Shown here: piece by piece, positions 1,233-59,657 of the stretch
Numbering within the stretch: position 1 is the stretch's first letter
How the letters are laid out: each line of letters starts with the position of its first letter
DNA from: Alphaproteobacteria bacterium
Lineage (GTDB): Bacteria; Pseudomonadota; Alphaproteobacteria; Micavibrionales; Micavibrionaceae
DNA: 64,000 bases
Reading direction: 5' to 3'
Assembly (NCBI GenBank): GCA_016125135.1
Contig: WGMJ01000014.1
Location: 62,001-126,000, forward strand
Program-made: the position numbers and the translations under genes
The notes under the pieces: model-generated
Database searches by the model: none
What the model saw: only the letters and a program-made list of their open reading frames with translations
What the model was told of the DNA's origin: nothing

Positions 1233-4175
1233 ATGCTCAGGCTCTACTTTAACATCTTGATTCTCATGGCTTTCATGCTTCTGCCGTTGGCCGCGCAGGC
1301 GCTTGAAATCCGTGCCAGCGAGAAAGAAAATTTCAGTCGTGTGGTTTTCGAGTTTCCACAGCGCACCGACTATGATGCCAGCCAGCAGGGAAATATCTTC
1401 CGCATTACATTCAAAACACCAGCCCCTGCAACAACAATCCCGTCTATAAGTGCGTTAACGCGTGTCGAAAAAATTGCACAAAGTAACGACACGGTTTTTG
1501 AAATCACCGTCAAGTCCGGTATGAGTGCCCGTGCAGCTGCTTTGGGAAACCGTGTGATTGTTGATATTAAGGGCGGGCCGTCCACACAAACATCTGCGCC
1601 CACACCAACGCCTGAAGCCTCAATTCCGTCAGATGCACCCGATGTCCTCACGCCGCCTATCGAACCTGTCAAGAAAGCTACAGAGCCTGTAATGCCAGCC
1701 GTAGCGCCGCCTGTAGTGGAGACACTCAAAACAACAATAGCAGCAGAAAAACCAACGGGCGCTGCATCACCACATACAATTACGCTTGGTTCGTCAAGCG
1801 CGCTCTCAATGGCTGTGTTCAAGCGCGATGATAGACTTTGGCTCGTTACAAATCAGCCCAACATGGTGGTGTTCCCGCAAGTTGAAGGGCGGCAGGCAGA
1901 GGATTTCCCGCCGTTTGACAAGATTGCGATCCAGGGCGGCACGGCTTACCGTGTGCAACTGCCCGCAAATTTGCGTACAGCCGGTGTTGTTGTTGAAAGT
2001 GAAGGGTTGGTCTGGAAGATTTTTATTGCCACGCCTGAAAAACAAAAAGCCATTGATATATGGCCACTCCGCACAATCGAAGCGAATGCGGCGGATAACA
2101 AACTTTCGTGGAAACTGCCACAAGCGCAAGACCGCTTGCAAATCGAAGACCCGCAATATCATGACCAGATCATTGTTGTGCCTGTAACAGGCACCGGCTT
2201 TGCAGCTGTGCCGCAATCATTCCTCCAGTTCGAGCTTCTTGAATCCTACACAGGGCTTGCATTTGTACCAGAGATTGAAACGTTCCTTGTTACAAAAGAG
2301 GCTGATCAGGTGGTCGTGCGCTCGCCAGACGGATTGATGTTCTCGCCAGCATCAGATGTCAGCGGCTACATTGCCGAAATCAAGAAGCTGCAAGCAGCAA
2401 AAGCCGAACCAGCGCCGGCGGCCACGAAAGAAGGCGAAGTCGCTGCGCCTGTTGTCAGTGCAAAAGAAGCGGGGCTGATCCGTTTCGAGGATTGGCGGCA
2501 GGCAGGATTGGAAGAGCTTAAGCGGCAAAGTGTTTCCGTTCTCTCGGGCTTGGCGGCAAAAACGCCAGCAGGGCAGGCTGAGGATTTAATCGCACTCACA
2601 AAATCAAGCCTTGCGCATGGTCAGAGCGCAGAAGCAAAAGGTTTCATTGATTACGCTGTACTCGTTTTGCCGGGCCTTGCCGATACAGCTGAGGTGCGTG
2701 CCTTGCGTGGTGTTGCGCTTCTTCAACTCGGGCAGGCCGATCTTGCCTACCGTGAATTGTCTGCATCCTCGCTCGATAATATTCCCGAGATGGCTTATTG
2801 GCGCAGTATTGCGCTGGCGATGCTGGAAGACTGGCAGCAGGCGGGTACCTTCCTACCACAAGAAACAGCAATCCCCACAAACTGGCCGGATGAAATCAAA
2901 TACCGTTTTATTCCGTTTATGGCCGAGACCGCTTTACGCAAAGGTGACATAGCGCTTGGCGAAAGATTGATGGCGATTTTAACGAATGAAGCAACACTTC
3001 CTCCTTACGTGAAAATGCATGTTGATTATCTGAAGGGTGAATCAGCCCGCCAGCGCGGTGACAATGAACGCGCCGAGCAGCTTTGGGAAGAATTAAGCAA
3101 GAGCACGGATGATCTATACCGTGCACGCGCAGGCCTTGCGCTTGTGTCGCTTCAGTATAGCCAGAAGAAGATTGATCAAGCCGAAGCAATTGATAAGCTC
3201 GAGCGTCTTCGTTATGCATGGCGTGGCGATGCTTTGGAAATGACGGTCAATTTCCGCCTCGGGCAGGTTTACATGGAGGCAAAAGATTACCTCAAAGGTT
3301 TCTCGGTTCTGCGCAACGCGGCAAGCCTGACCCCTGAAGCAGAACTCAGCGGCGATATTACGGCGTTTATGGTGGAGTCATTCAAAAAGATATTCCAGCC
3401 GGAAACACTGAAAGAAACGGATCCGCTGCTTGCACTTACAGTTTACGAAGAGTTCGGCGAACTTTTGCCGCCTGGCGAGGAAGGCAAAGCTATTACGCAG
3501 GCACTCGCCGAGAGATTGCGCGAAGCCGACATGCTGGAACAATCGGCGAAACTGTTAGGAAAGCAGGTTAAAAATTCGAGCGGGCTAGAGGCTGTTACCG
3601 CCGCAACGCAGCTTGCCGCTGTCCGGTTGATTGACCGCAACCCTGAAGCCGCCCTGAAAGCGCTTGAGGGTGTGGAAGAGCCATTGTCAAAAGCTTCCAC
3701 TGAAGATGCCGAGCCGAAGCGCCGTGAAATTGCCTTGCTCCGTGCGCGTGCGCACTCGCAGCTCAAACAACCCGATGAAGCTTTCAAAGTTTTGAATACA
3801 ATCCCGCAAGAGGGGGATGCCTTGCGTTTGCGGGCCGACATTGCATGGCAGTCACAACGCTGGCAGGATGCCGCCGAGGCACTCGAGCGCCTTGTACAGG
3901 CCGAGCGGATTAGCGTGACACGGCCAATGACAGATGCGCAGGCAAATCTGGTGTTAAACTGGGCCGTTGCACTGAACCTTGCAGATAACCGCTACGTACT
4001 TGCCAATGTGCGCGAACGCTTTGCCCTTGCCATGCAATCAACAAAGAATGCAAAATTATTCGATGTCGTCACGCGCGCGCGGCAAAATGCAGGTCTGGCC
4101 GACCGCGAGACAATCCGCTCTTTCACATCTGAAGTCGATATGTTCAAGGATTTTCTGGAGAGCTATAAAAAATAG
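1233..4175 (+). CDS. Large periplasmic TPR protein with AMIN-like N-terminal domain
   Basis: About 980 residues. I chose ATG 1233, which gives a clean signal peptide (hydrophobic core then AAQA-LE around residue 24); an in-frame TTG at 1197, just after the motB-like stop, would add 12 residues. Residues about 25-110 alternate strands as in AMIN-type domains, followed by a Pro/Ala/Thr-rich linker (about 115-175), a second beta-rich domain, then from about residue 470 to the end a long alpha-helical region of TPR-like repeats (for example an ALLQLGQADLAYREL helix pair). Position after two MotB-like genes suggests a periplasmic accessory of the motor, comparable in place to rhizobial MotC, though no direct similarity to MotC can be claimed by eye. 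Confidence 0.7.
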   Translation: MLRLYFNILILMAFMLLPLAAQALEIRASEKENFSRVVFEFPQRTDYDASQQGNIFRITFKTPAPATTIPSISALTRVEKIAQSNDTVFEITVKSGMSARAAALGNRVIVDIKGGPSTQTSAPTPTPEASIPSDAPDVLTPPIEPVKKATEPVMPAVAPPVVETLKTTIAAEKPTGAASPHTITLGSSSALSMAVFKRDDRLWLVTNQPNMVVFPQVEGRQAEDFPPFDKIAIQGGTAYRVQLPANLRTAGVVVESEGLVWKIFIATPEKQKAIDIWPLRTIEANAADNKLSWKLPQAQDRLQIEDPQYHDQIIVVPVTGTGFAAVPQSFLQFELLESYTGLAFVPEIETFLVTKEADQVVVRSPDGLMFSPASDVSGYIAEIKKLQAAKAEPAPAATKEGEVAAPVVSAKEAGLIRFEDWRQAGLEELKRQSVSVLSGLAAKTPAGQAEDLIALTKSSLAHGQSAEAKGFIDYAVLVLPGLADTAEVRALRGVALLQLGQADLAYRELSASSLDNIPEMAYWRSIALAMLEDWQQAGTFLPQETAIPTNWPDEIKYRFIPFMAETALRKGDIALGERLMAILTNEATLPPYVKMHVDYLKGESARQRGDNERAEQLWEELSKSTDDLYRARAGLALVSLQYSQKKIDQAEAIDKLERLRYAWRGDALEMTVNFRLGQVYMEAKDYLKGFSVLRNAASLTPEAELSGDITAFMVESFKKIFQPETLKETDPLLALTVYEEFGELLPPGEEGKAITQALAERLREADMLEQSAKLLGKQVKNSSGLEAVTAATQLAAVRLIDRNPEAALKALEGVEEPLSKASTEDAEPKRREIALLRARAHSQLKQPDEAFKVLNTIPQEGDALRLRADIAWQSQRWQDAAEALERLVQAERISVTRPMTDAQANLVLNWAVALNLADNRYVLANVRERFALAMQSTKNAKLFDVVTRARQNAGLADRETIRSFTSEVDMFKDFLESYKK

Positions 4176-53589: not shown

Positions 53590-54612
53590 ATGCCTATGCA
53601 AGAAGGGTTACCGCCGGTTCCTGCTTTTAACCTCGCCACTTTAAATGCTGAAGGTGAGCCAGAACGTTTGTATAAAGCGTTCCGTGATGTGGGTGCAATT
53701 GCACTGAAGATTGATGAAATCTATCCTGAGTTTGAAGCGCTGTTGAATGATTTTGAAAACCAGTCATGGACATTCTGGCGTTTGTCACAAGAAGAAAAAA
53801 ACAAGTTCAGACACCCGGAGGCTAACTTCGAAATTGGCTACAATAATGAAGAAAAAGCCAGCCATATGCTTGTGCCTGACAACAAGGAGATGCTGACATT
53901 CAAGCGCGCAGCACTATCGAACGAGCCATATCCTAACGAGCTTTTAAAAAATATCGATTTGCCTATGCTTCCAGGCTTTACTGAAAAGGCCGTCCGTATA
54001 AACGCAACAATGACGCAAATTAATGCCGCCGTCCTTCAAGTTCTGGCATCACAACTATTTCTTGAGGGTGGTTTTGTAAAGGGTGTTAATTCACACATAA
54101 AAACAGCCGGGGACCTTGCACAACAGTTTAACCGTAATTACTCGACCCATACACGTATTCTGCACTACCCTGAAAACGGGACGGCAGAAGATCATCGTGA
54201 CAGGTCAGCCTTTACGTGTTTGGCACCACGACGCCCCGGGCTTGAAATTGAAGACCGTGATGGCAACTGGTTTGCTGCCAATGCAAAAGAAGGCTGGGTC
54301 ATTATCAACACCGGCCGTGCGATGGGCGCCTTAACGAACGACCATATTCTCCCCTGTAACCACCGTGTTATGACGGAAGGAGAGCGCCTTTCAACCGTAA
54401 CATTCTCGTCATGGGAGCCGGACACAGTGATGGAGCCGATGATTAGCTGCGCATTGTTCGAGACTGTTGAAGACTACAGCAAGTATCGCGGCGGTACATT
54501 TGATGATTACGATAAGCGCCGTGTACAGCATAATTTTGCCGGTGTGCACGGGGTTCATGTGGATACGCTGGTTGATGCTAAAGGGCGTGTAATTACGCCG
54601 AAAAGCCCTTAA
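53590..54612 (+). CDS. 2-oxoglutarate/Fe(II)-dependent dioxygenase (isopenicillin N synthase family)
   Basis: 340 residues, AAGGGAG ribosome site. Iron facial triad: H202-R-D204 in AEDHRDRSAFTCL and distal His258 in PCNHRVMT; the 2-oxoglutarate Arg266-x-Ser268 in GERLSTVTF; the N-terminal DIOX_N-like part includes GAIALKIDE and SWTFWRLSQEEKNKFR. This family hydroxylates, desaturates or cyclises small molecules. No biosynthetic partner enzyme is adjacent; neighbours are unrecognised proteins. Its stop shares TTAA with the convergent gene at 54609. Confidence 0.85.
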   Translation: MPMQEGLPPVPAFNLATLNAEGEPERLYKAFRDVGAIALKIDEIYPEFEALLNDFENQSWTFWRLSQEEKNKFRHPEANFEIGYNNEEKASHMLVPDNKEMLTFKRAALSNEPYPNELLKNIDLPMLPGFTEKAVRINATMTQINAAVLQVLASQLFLEGGFVKGVNSHIKTAGDLAQQFNRNYSTHTRILHYPENGTAEDHRDRSAFTCLAPRRPGLEIEDRDGNWFAANAKEGWVIINTGRAMGALTNDHILPCNHRVMTEGERLSTVTFSSWEPDTVMEPMISCALFETVEDYSKYRGGTFDDYDKRRVQHNFAGVHGVHVDTLVDAKGRVITPKSP

Positions 54613-55496
54613 GGCGCCTCGTCTGAAGTAGTATCTTTTAATTTACGCTCGGCTTCACTGATAAAAAGAGAAAAGGCGGGCTTCTCGGGCCGGTAGCGCA
54701 CATTATAAAGGCTCTCGAAACTTGTAATGCTGGCTTCAATGCGACGGATACGCTCCTCGGCCTGTTTCATTTTATATTGCATTTCTTTTTTCTCGGAGTG
54801 GCCAAGGCGACCCGCTTCGTGGTTCTGGTGCGATGCACCGATTTCAAATGAGAGTTGAATTGCCTCTAGATAGTCCGCGCAAACCTCAAGGCAATGCACC
54901 ATATTGAGCGGGTTTTTCTCTTTTGGTGTGATGGTACAGTTGAACGTACCTTTACGCTCGGCCCCACGGGAGATCAAGCCGCAACGTGCTTCTTTCTTTG
55001 TGAAGTGCAATAACAGGCCAATCATCAGATTATGGTTTATGCGCACACGCTTGCCGAGTTTGCGAAAAGCATCTTCAGCAATTTTGATTGTCTCTTCGTA
55101 ATTCTCGCGGTTGAGCCGGTCGCATTGCTCGATAATGTTCAGAAACGGGTGGGGCTCGCCTTGGTCAAAAACAATCTGACCATCCTTATAAACCGTGCAC
55201 CAGATTTTCGGGTTATAGAGCCGCTCATGGTGCGAGACAACATCATCCCATGCGTCCGCCCATTTGAACGGAACAGCGCGGCCGGCAACGGGGCCGAGTT
55301 CGAGGAATGATTTTAAAATGCGGGAGCCCATTCGCAGGGCACAATGCATGGTTTGGGAGCGGATAACAAAAAACTCTGCCGGCGTACCATCGGCATTATA
55401 CAGCACCATGGGGAAGCGATTGCTAAGCGCAATCACCTCTTCTGTATCCTCATGGATCAGAAACCGTTCGCGGTAGAGTGTGCTATGTAATTCCAA
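54609..55496 (-). CDS. Unrecognised protein, up to 295 residues
   Basis: The longest frame starts at a TTG (55496) with no ribosome site and right next to a terminator, so the true start may be a later Met (for example residue 30). Mixed alpha/beta, no signal peptide. Contains WADAWDDVVSHHERLYNPKIWCTVYKDGQIVFDQGEPHPFLNIIEQCD, an Arg/Lys-rich middle, and a C-terminal coiled coil (YKMKQAEERIRRIEASITSFESLYN, about 240-265). Family not recognised. Confidence 0.55.
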   Translation of the reverse strand: MELHSTLYRERFLIHEDTEEVIALSNRFPMVLYNADGTPAEFFVIRSQTMHCALRMGSRILKSFLELGPVAGRAVPFKWADAWDDVVSHHERLYNPKIWCTVYKDGQIVFDQGEPHPFLNIIEQCDRLNRENYEETIKIAEDAFRKLGKRVRINHNLMIGLLLHFTKKEARCGLISRGAERKGTFNCTITPKEKNPLNMVHCLEVCADYLEAIQLSFEIGASHQNHEAGRLGHSEKKEMQYKMKQAEERIRRIEASITSFESLYNVRYRPEKPAFSLFISEAERKLKDTTSDEAP

Positions 55497-55560: not shown

Positions 55561-55959
55561 TTACATACCAAAGCTGCCAGCATAGCCTAGTGGTGCCGGA
55601 GCAGGGGCTGGTCTGTTGAAGTTTGCTGCTTCAAGAGTTACTTTTACTTCTGGAATATGAGCAAAAGCTTCAAGGTCTGCTAATTCACGGCGTTGTTGTG
55701 GCAGGTTGTTGGCCAATGTATCGGAAAGAGCGGAAATATTCATTAGGATGTCATTCATTGCAAAGCTCATGCCTGCGAATTCAATGCCTGGAACAACCGC
55801 TGGCATGAAGACATCTAGAAAGCTTGTGCCCATTTCATTTGCAGCTTCTTTTTGGTGCGCTGTTGCCTGAGGGCCTGCAGGCGCTGGTGCGGCGGCCATA
55901 CCAAACTGGCCTTGTGCCAGTCCGTTTCTTCTTGCTAATTGTGCGCCTGCGTTGCTCAT
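55561..55959 (-). CDS. Unrecognised Ala/Pro/Gly-rich protein, 132 residues
   Basis: No family recognised. Low-complexity start (GLAQGQFGMAAAPAPAGPQATAHQ), a central hydrophobic helix-like part (SFLDVFMPAVVPGIEFAGMSFAMNDILMNIS, about 46-76), then an acidic helical part and a Pro/Ala tail APAPAPLGYAGSFGM. No cleavable signal peptide. Its own terminator follows. The two GxFGM ends recall the Gly-rich end of the 43-residue protein at 23693, but this may be chance. Confidence 0.55.
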   Translation of the reverse strand: MSNAGAQLARRNGLAQGQFGMAAAPAPAGPQATAHQKEAANEMGTSFLDVFMPAVVPGIEFAGMSFAMNDILMNISALSDTLANNLPQQRRELADLEAFAHIPEVKVTLEAANFNRPAPAPAPLGYAGSFGM

Positions 55960-56110
55960 GTAATTAGAATATCAATTGTCGCTAAATACATGCCTAATTA
56001 TGCAAACAATTTTATCTAATTGGTTTTTTAATTTTTGCAATAAAAACAGTAGGTTAATATGTTTTTAGATGCCTAAAATTTTAGGTATTCTAAGAATTTA
56101 TAAAAAAAGC

Positions 56111-56203
56111 AAAAAAAAACCGGACCAAATTGGCCCGGCGAGTTGAACAGGGAGGTTTCACGTCTGGGAGACGTAAAAATTGATGCGAAGCATCAACGGG
56201 ACG
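56111..56203 (-). ncRNA. AbcR / alpha-r15-like trans-acting small RNA
   Basis: In a 326-base gene-free gap (55960-56285). On the minus strand: hairpin TTGATGC-TTC-GCATCAA (56196-56180), hairpin ACGTCT-CCC-AGACGT (56174-56160) whose loop region reads CTCCCA, an unpaired ACCTCCCTG, then terminator stem CCGGGCCAA/TTGGTCCGG (56138-56120) with nine T (56119-56111). A promoter TATACA-17-TATATT lies just upstream. This is the layout of rhizobial AbcR sRNAs, with anti-Shine-Dalgarno C-rich motifs, and those genes also lie beside a trxB-adjacent lysR (lsrB/vtlR). The rest of the gap has AT-rich sequence with nothing else clear. Confidence 0.7.
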
Positions 56204-56285
56204 AAATATAAGTTTAAGTTGGGAAAATGTATAGCATTATTTATTCATGGCAGATATGCGTAAAACGCATGGAACAATCTTAAAA

Positions 56286-57179
56286 TTAGGCCAGTGTTTG
56301 AGCCGTTTTTAACAGAAAATCCCGAAAAAGGGTGATTCTACGGGCATTCTTCCGTCCTTCGGGGTATACGAAATATACAGCCACTGGGTCTGGTTTTTCC
56401 TCGGGGAAGAGTGTCACGAGGTTTTTATTTTCCCGAATCAAATAGTCGGGCAAGAGGCCAATTCCAAGGCCTGCCGAAATGGCGTAGGAAACGCCTGTCA
56501 GCGTGGTGATTCTCACAAGATTCGGGTTTTGCCCCTCATCGGCAATTTTCAGCTTATGGGTGAGCCACGCATGGTCTTTAAAGGGGGCATTCAGCCCGTG
56601 AGCAGGTAGGGTTACAAGCCGGTGGTTGCGCAGGTCGGCAAATTCTTTCGGCGTGCCGCGCTTCTGCAAATAGTCTTTAGATGCGCAGATCGAGAAATGC
56701 AGGTTTGTCACCTGTCGCTGGATCAAATCTTGTTGCTCAGGTTTATAAAGACGAATAGCCGCATCGGCCTCGCGCATGCCCAAATTCAAAACACGGTCAT
56801 CAAGTAAAAATGTAATAGCGATATCTGGGTGTTCGTCATGAAACGCGCCGATATGTTTGGCCAGCCATGTTACACCAAGGAAACCGGGCATCGTAATTTG
56901 TAACGGGCCTGCCGCAACATCTTTTGTATCGGTAAGTTTGGCCTCCACTTGCGAGAGCTGCGCGAAAATACTTTCTGCCGTGTGGTGAAGCATTTCACCC
57001 TGTTCGGTGAGCACAAGCCCGCGCGCATGACGCTGGAAAAGTTGAATGCCTAAAGATTCTTCTAAAGTGCTGATCTGACGCGAAACGGAAGATTGTTGAA
57101 GCCCCAGCATTTCGCCAGCGCGCGTAAAACTGCCAGCCTGCGCTACGGCGTAGAAAATGCGGAGCTTGTCCCAATCCAT
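56286..57179 (-). CDS. LysR-family regulator (LsrB/VtlR-like)
   Basis: 297 residues from ATG 57179 (GTG 57185 also possible). Winged HTH MDWDKLRIFYAVAQAGSFTRAGEMLGLQQSSVSRQISTLEESLG (1-45), then a periplasmic-binding-fold effector domain (90-295, PLQITMPGFLGVTWLAKHI). Directly after trxB (stop 9 bases away), and followed downstream by the sRNA. In rhizobia the equivalent LsrB/VtlR sits next to trxB and controls abcR2 and redox or envelope genes; a like role is inferred here. Confidence 0.9.
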   Translation of the reverse strand: MDWDKLRIFYAVAQAGSFTRAGEMLGLQQSSVSRQISTLEESLGIQLFQRHARGLVLTEQGEMLHHTAESIFAQLSQVEAKLTDTKDVAAGPLQITMPGFLGVTWLAKHIGAFHDEHPDIAITFLLDDRVLNLGMREADAAIRLYKPEQQDLIQRQVTNLHFSICASKDYLQKRGTPKEFADLRNHRLVTLPAHGLNAPFKDHAWLTHKLKIADEGQNPNLVRITTLTGVSYAISAGLGIGLLPDYLIRENKNLVTLFPEEKPDPVAVYFVYPEGRKNARRITLFRDFLLKTAQTLA

Positions 57180-57187
57180 CGTCACAT

Positions 57188-59106
<1,919 letters not shown>

Positions 59107-59180: not shown

Positions 59181-59657
59181 ATGACACGCATCAAGCTCGA
59201 TAAAATCGATCTCAAAATCCTCAAGGAATTACAAGAAAACGGCCGCATAACGAATGTGGAGCTGGCCAAAAAAGCCGGCATTTCCGCGCCGCCTTGTTTG
59301 CGCCGCGTTCGCCAGCTGGAAGAGCTGGGCATTATCACGGGCTACCATGCCGATTTGAACGGCGCGATGTTAGGCTATGGCATTACAGTGTTTGCACACG
59401 TGAAGCTGAACAGCCAGAGCGATGCCGAGCTGAAGAAATTCATGGCCGAAGTATGCGGCTGGGCAGAAGTGCGCGAAGCATGGACGCTAACAGGCGAAGA
59501 CGATGTGCTGCTGAAGATCGTTGCAAAAAGCTGGGAAGGCTACCACGCGCTGCTGGTACAAAAACTCACACCGCTTGCGAACGTCAAAACCGTGCGTTCT
59601 TCTTTGGCTGTGACCGCTGATAAATCCGTCCCCGGCGTTCCGGTGGATGTGGAGTAA
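59181..59657 (+). CDS. Lrp/AsnC-family regulator
   Basis: 158 residues. HTH at 6-55 (LDKIDLKILKELQENGRITNVELAKKAGISAPPCLRRVRQLEELGIITGY) and a C-terminal RAM ligand domain. Typical amino-acid-responsive global or local regulator. Next to ELM1/trxB/lysR, its usual place in alphaproteobacteria. The HNH gene follows 12 bases later, possibly on the same transcript. Confidence 0.94.
   Translation: MTRIKLDKIDLKILKELQENGRITNVELAKKAGISAPPCLRRVRQLEELGIITGYHADLNGAMLGYGITVFAHVKLNSQSDAELKKFMAEVCGWAEVREAWTLTGEDDVLLKIVAKSWEGYHALLVQKLTPLANVKTVRSSLAVTADKSVPGVPVDVE

Follow-up and report, generated by a model that had tools for sequence, protein, structure and literature searches.

A small RNA behind trxB-lysR, widespread in Alphaproteobacteria, appears to belong to a control circuit older than the rhizobia

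The locus and its RNA element

In the window (the whole stretch of 64,000 nt that was analysed), a thioredoxin reductase gene is followed on the minus strand by a lysR gene and then by a small RNA element (Table 1). Both genes were confirmed, and with them the place that the first-pass annotation had given the RNA, directly downstream of a trxB-lysR pair. An Lrp-type gene (59181-59657) lies on the strand opposite to this pair. Past the RNA, the next gene (55561-55959) is again on the minus strand; neither this open frame nor the one further downstream (54609-55496, minus strand) matches a Pfam or NCBIfam profile.

Table 1. Coordinates of the locus in the window and of the RNA copies found in viral contigs
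Feature	Position	Strand	Basis
trxB, thioredoxin reductase	57188-58162	-	TIGR01292, 413.7 bits (cut-off 343.45)
lysR, orthologue of VtlR/LsrB	56286-57185	-	gene call, profile and protein matches
Palindromic LysR-type box ATGCGTTTTACGCAT (ATGC-N7-GCAT, T-N11-A)	56256-56270	-	conserved across loci
GCATATCTGCCAT, exact match to published VtlR/LsrB box GCAT-N3-TG-N3-T	56247-56259	-	PMC8844928, PMC7486931
-35 box CTATAC, 17-nt spacer	56229-56234	-	read from sequence
-10 box TTATAT	56206-56211	-	read from sequence; relatives have a TATAT-like element here
sRNA, about 89 nt	56111-56199	-	5' end inferred from -10 box, 3' end from U tract
5' stem-loop	56179-56197	-	varies among taxa; further CUCCC in loop of some relatives
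Core hairpin with CCC loop	56156-56178	-	fold; CUCCCA at 56170-56165
Class-wide conserved 28-nt core CGUCUCCCAGACGUGAAACCUCCCUGUU	56146-56173	-	sequence conservation
Unpaired anti-Shine-Dalgarno stretch CCUCCCUGUU	56146-56155	-	fold
Intrinsic terminator	56111-56139	-	stem 56139-56119, U tract 56118-56111; pattern scan, covarying helix
sRNA copy, viral contig L307	2925-3000	+	R1
sRNA copy, viral contig L308	7979-8049	-	R1
sRNA copy, viral contig L309	9875-9939	-	R1
sRNA copy, viral contig L310	4199-4267	-	R1
sRNA copy, viral contig L311	5396-5465	-	R1
sRNA copy, viral contig L312	1364-1446	-	R1

Folding of 56203-56111 gives two stem-loops, then 16 unpaired nt as a linker, and last the terminator hairpin with its U tract. 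The energy of this stretch is -32.9 kcal/mol, and that of shuffles -17.5 +/- 3.1 (z = -4.9; equalled by 0 of 200). A pattern scan also recovered the terminator (2 found, 0.2 expected from shuffles). The two stem-loops and strong terminator that had been annotated here on the minus strand are therefore confirmed by fold and scan, and CCUCCCUGUU is unpaired in the minimum-energy fold, as had been stated; of the CTCCCA that had been placed in a loop, the loop holds the CCC and the stem the flanking C, U, and A. The 5' part could not be aligned among relatives, and the consensus structure was taken from a trimmed alignment (A3). When 105 relatives were folded singly, 97 formed the core hairpin with a free CCC loop, 73 left the second seed unpaired, 104 formed the terminator, and 87 had a further hairpin just 5' of it. 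The terminator helix covaries (0.238 versus at most 0.112 for slid controls), with 43 cells changed on both sides and a score reached by 0 of 500 shuffles; the core hairpin has no such support because it is too invariant. Most copies have the core consensus CGUCUCCCAGACGUGAARCCUCCCUGUU exactly or with hardly a change, and since it is conserved across the class, the element lies far beyond chance. The next gene being on the same strand, one could see in the RNA a cis-acting leader, but a strong terminator stands between the two and the genes behind the RNA differ by lineage (e.g., ArsR in rhizobia, with no comparable gene in the window), which makes this reading extremely improbable.

A conserved promoter and an orthologous regulator

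The position of the -10 box puts the start near 56199, hence the length of the RNA. The ATGC-N7-GCAT palindrome, with its end 21 nt upstream of the -35 box in the window, is found upstream of the RNA at 96 of 134 distinct loci (shuffles: mean 0.8, maximum 4), and the looser TGC-N7-GCA at 118 (mean 10.5, maximum 17); with other spacers, N5 and N8 were at chance and N6 was raised (45). The published box GCAT-N3-TG-N3-T, which overlaps the right half of the palindrome, occurs at 35 of the loci (shuffles: mean 3.1, maximum 8). Counted from the inferred start, GCATATCTGCCAT takes up about -60 to -48 in the window; in the AbcR1 promoter the published box lies around -61 to -49. Seven of eight RNA copies displaced from lysR have kept the palindrome; since the box travels with them, it belongs to the promoter of the RNA. 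In and around the window's family, most copies that have no lysR are also without the palindrome, which means that LysR does not control the RNA everywhere. Over both sets, 118 of 134 lysR-linked and 10 of 22 unlinked copies have the loose box; the sets are non-random, such that a test value should not be over-read.

These observations bear on the possibility that the trxB-lysR transcript simply ends in this stretch as its 3' UTR and terminator, from which a stable fragment may be cut. The element would then be expected on the same strand and directly behind lysR, as it is in most genomes, yet the box and -10 element are conserved between lysR and the RNA, a near-invariant core of 28 nt is unnecessary for termination, and some copies lie kilobases from lysR or have no lysR at all. 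We consider this explanation very improbable.

The adjoining LysR is the best match of Sinorhizobium meliloti LsrB in the window's genome (43%, E 4e-73; next match E 7e-8), so that the RNA indeed occupies the place next to lsrB/vtlR that had been given for rhizobial AbcR1/2. Across orthologues, identity to S. meliloti LsrB has a median of 75% in the DNA-binding domain and 43% in the remainder. The window's protein has a single cysteine (167) and misses the redox cysteines of rhizobial LsrB. The redox switch of the latter involves C144/C273 among others (PMC11975290), and 122 of 202 orthologues are free of cysteine; the class-wide signal is therefore probably different, and the cysteine switch should not be transferred to the whole class.

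Distribution across Alphaproteobacteria

We built a covariance model, R1, from 39 sequences; its matches at E <= 1e-4, with E-values that are rough (shortened calibration), cover 180 of the 385 alphaproteobacterial genomes and, counted by hand, about 83 families. Its sole match in the window is 56175-56111 (77.1 bits). By Blast, 96 of 143 related genomes have a relative of the RNA (80 of the 105 that are of good quality), other families included, and 27 of 29 loci found in this way have lysR directly upstream on the same strand, mostly preceded by trxB. Among the 30 best R1 loci, 22 have a LysR within 1.5 kb. An independent survey started from TrxB in the 385 class genomes and examined the regions behind trxB, as the first-pass annotation had proposed for the gaps downstream of trxB-lysR: the RNA lies behind 39 of 57 pairs with enough sequence, sampled across families, and 18 pairs have none in the sequence examined behind them. 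Named genomes, scanned with an alignment of LysR, yielded 80 loci, with TrxB upstream in 68 and a divergent Lrp/AsnC gene in 36. The core is exact or nearly so in about 60 of them, including Thalassospira, Azospirillum, Magnetospirillum, Kiloniella, Tistlia, Nisaea, Reyranella, Elioraea, SAR116, and others. The pair of RNA and regulator is present in about 83 of the families sampled and hence predates the Rhizobiales, a suggestion of the annotation that these data bear out. We did not find the core sequence in the published literature of one open library, and a published sRNA-seq study of Azospirillum makes no mention of trxB or ar15.

A number of loci depart from the common arrangement. Thalassospira lucentensis (L142) has two tandem copies behind trxB-lysR (2832-2900 and 3200-3266, plus strand), as AbcR1 and AbcR2 in rhizobia. 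In L263, from another family, three CUCCC-rich RNA-like units stand in a row behind lysR (2550-3180, plus strand), one of them with a UUCCUCCCAGU loop as in AbcR; the match to ar14 is weak (28.7 bits, cut-off 58.8). In the genomes L057, L128, and L151, lysR is absent from its place and the RNA comes straight after trxB, which suggests that the regulator was lost and the RNA kept. The window's family also has paralogous short RNAs (L052 1473-1426, L053 1285-1243, and L054 1387-1345, minus strand) that share only ACCUCCCUGUUCAACUCGCCGG and the terminator and are without the core hairpin or LysR box.

Six viral contigs carry the core and terminator (R1 46-77 bits; Table 1), none with an adjoining LysR box or LysR gene. 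In three of them, terminase and portal, DnaB helicase, RecT, and integrase are among the neighbouring genes. These look like phage-borne copies of a host RNA; among the phages of INPHARED, no RNA of the R1 type was matched.

Relation to AbcR and SorX

AbcR1 and VtlR/LsrB have been studied as rhizobial regulators of symbiosis and virulence. The alpha-r15 family, to which the first-pass annotation had likened the RNA, is stated to be confined to Rhizobiaceae and Brucellaceae (PMC3712013). Membership in it is supported in neither direction. The Rfam model ar15 (RF02345) gives no match in 56000-56290 at E <= 10, and it gives 97-127 bits on true AbcR1/2 behind trxB-lysR in S. meliloti, Shinella, and Rhizobium leguminosarum, whose loci were taken from large replicon records in a plasmid collection; R1, run unfiltered on AbcR1/2, reaches at most 4.9 bits, on the wrong strand. 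In the class genomes and one further family ar15 found nothing, a weak negative as few candidates were scored. The lack of a covariance-model hit, one half of what the annotation had itself named as counting against its proposal, tells against the name AbcR and not against an old module. As to the seeds, CUCCCA, the short form of the first AbcR seed (CUCCUCCC/CUCCCA in a loop), is present in the window, partly in a stem, and the longer CUCCUCCC is absent; in place of the second (UUCCCCUC/GUUCCC between hairpins) there is CCUCCCUGUU. Nor does the window's genome have two or more copies, an AbcR trait, the R1 match being the only one there. AbcR RNAs further bind Hfq and repress mRNAs for ABC transporters.

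The promoter is shared with AbcR1. In S. meliloti the same palindrome, as ATGCGCAAACGGCAT, stands 72 nt upstream of AbcR1, and our search upstream of AbcR2 gave none, in line with the published binding and activation by LsrB of AbcR1 and not AbcR2 (PMC8844928). An earlier study reported no LsrB effect in S. meliloti and activation of abcR1 by VtlR in Agrobacterium (PMC7486931).

A number of arguments could be made for a true orthologue of alpha-r15/AbcR1, i.e., one RNA of common ancestry that in Rhizobiaceae changed past recognition, or else acquired a hairpin ahead of the terminator and after the second seed, with locus, regulator, and promoter all retained. First, the gene order Lrp-trxB-lysR-sRNA is the same. 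Second, so is the promoter box. Third, CUCCCAG is common to the window-type RNA and the AbcR seed loop. Fourth, Thalassospira has tandem copies like the rhizobia. Fifth, ar15 and suhB belong to one Rfam clan, and suhB weakly matches some members of the class. With neither covariance model recognising the RNA of the other and with a different second seed, we find such orthology possible but rather doubtful.

Judged by sequence, the closest described RNA is SorX of Rhodobacter. The window matches no Rfam model better than that of SorX (RF02784), at 27.8 bits (E 6e-5 for 291 bases searched), well below the cut-off of 46.6. Two relatives, L131 and L320, reach this cut-off; the trxB-lysR-linked copy of L131, from another family, passes both SorX (51 bits) and R1 (52.1 bits). 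In Paracoccus SorX stands directly behind the same LysR (52.6 bits). Since L131 passes both models and Paracoccus has SorX at this place, SorX looks like one branch of the window-type RNA. The best Rfam match, L131, and Paracoccus might also be taken to mean that the window's RNA itself belongs in the SorX family, whose singlet-oxygen sRNA comes off the 3' end of an mRNA. This we think unlikely: besides the low score, SorX of Rhodobacter sphaeroides is processed from the ompR-1 mRNA (PMC9438474, PMC8625941), whereas here promoter-like elements of its own, the LysR box among them, are conserved behind lysR and speak against release from the 3' UTR of an mRNA for an OmpR-type regulator. MmgR/suhB (RF00519) scores 18.9 bits on the window, for a cut-off of 41.

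A proposed circuit and its relatives

The reading that we find likely is that of a predicted trans-acting sRNA, switched by LysR and part of an old alphaproteobacterial module. It would proceed as follows: 1) the RNA would be a stand-alone unit with its own sigma-70-type promoter just behind lysR; 2) by analogy with the rhizobial experiments, the VtlR/LsrB orthologue would bind ATGC-N7-GCAT and switch the RNA on; 3) the CCC loop in the core hairpin and the unpaired CCUCCCUGUU, both CU-rich, could serve as seeds that cover the ribosome-binding sites of mRNAs; 4) this pairing, as read from sequence, would lower their translation; and 5) the circuit of regulator, promoter, and RNA might have taken different courses, the same regulator and box driving in Rhizobiaceae an AbcR1 that is no longer recognisably related, and the RNA at the trxB-lysR place being of the SorX type in Rhodobacterales. 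We found no convincing target in the window's genome because long complementary sites (YRGGGAGGT) are not above control (14 versus 17 for the reversed control) and only one precedes a long open frame. As SorX in Rhodobacter reduces the translation of potA, which codes for a component of a polyamine transporter (PMC9438474), control of transporters is by analogy plausible.

The regulator box and gene order are common to this non-rhizobial RNA and AbcR1, and the control circuit therefore appears to be much older than the rhizobia, though the RNA is not a recognisable AbcR. One may tentatively go further, while leaning slightly against it, and suppose that the circuit was ancestral to much of Alphaproteobacteria and kept its box, that Rhizobiaceae swapped or rebuilt the RNA, with alpha-r15 replacing the class-wide core RNA, that the signal of the regulator changed, with redox cysteines only in rhizobia, and that phages carry cores without the box. 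If the circuit operates in dozens of non-rhizobial families, it would be among the broadest sRNA circuits of the class, one that is missing from Rfam as such. It offers a direct test of the role of the circuit before symbiosis and of how a promoter persists while its RNA product changes.

Three known systems can be compared with it. MmgR/suhB RNA shares a CUCCCU stretch between a short hairpin and the terminator and scores 26-41 bits on some relatives, but the matches are below the gathering score and the locus is different. SorX and SorY (RF02651) of R. sphaeroides share ACCUCCCUGUU followed by a terminator, and some trxB-lysR-linked copies pass as SorX; the latter, however, is cut from a 3' UTR with no LysR box described, and the window's copy, below the SorX cut-off, has a CGUCUCCCAGACG hairpin. 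AbcR1/2 with VtlR/LsrB in Sinorhizobium, Agrobacterium, and Brucella share the order trxB-lysR-sRNA and an orthologous regulator, the ATGC-N7-GCAT box with GCAT-N3-TG-N3-T at sigma-70 promoter spacing in the case of AbcR1, and an RNA with CUCCCA in a hairpin, a second unpaired CU-rich seed, and a terminator. They differ in RNA sequences that cannot be aligned, without an ar15 match to the window's sRNA, in the second seed, in a further AbcR hairpin before the terminator, and in the redox cysteines that most orthologous LysR proteins lack. Set against AbcR1, the window has the same switch in the same place, with a different or unrecognisably changed RNA.
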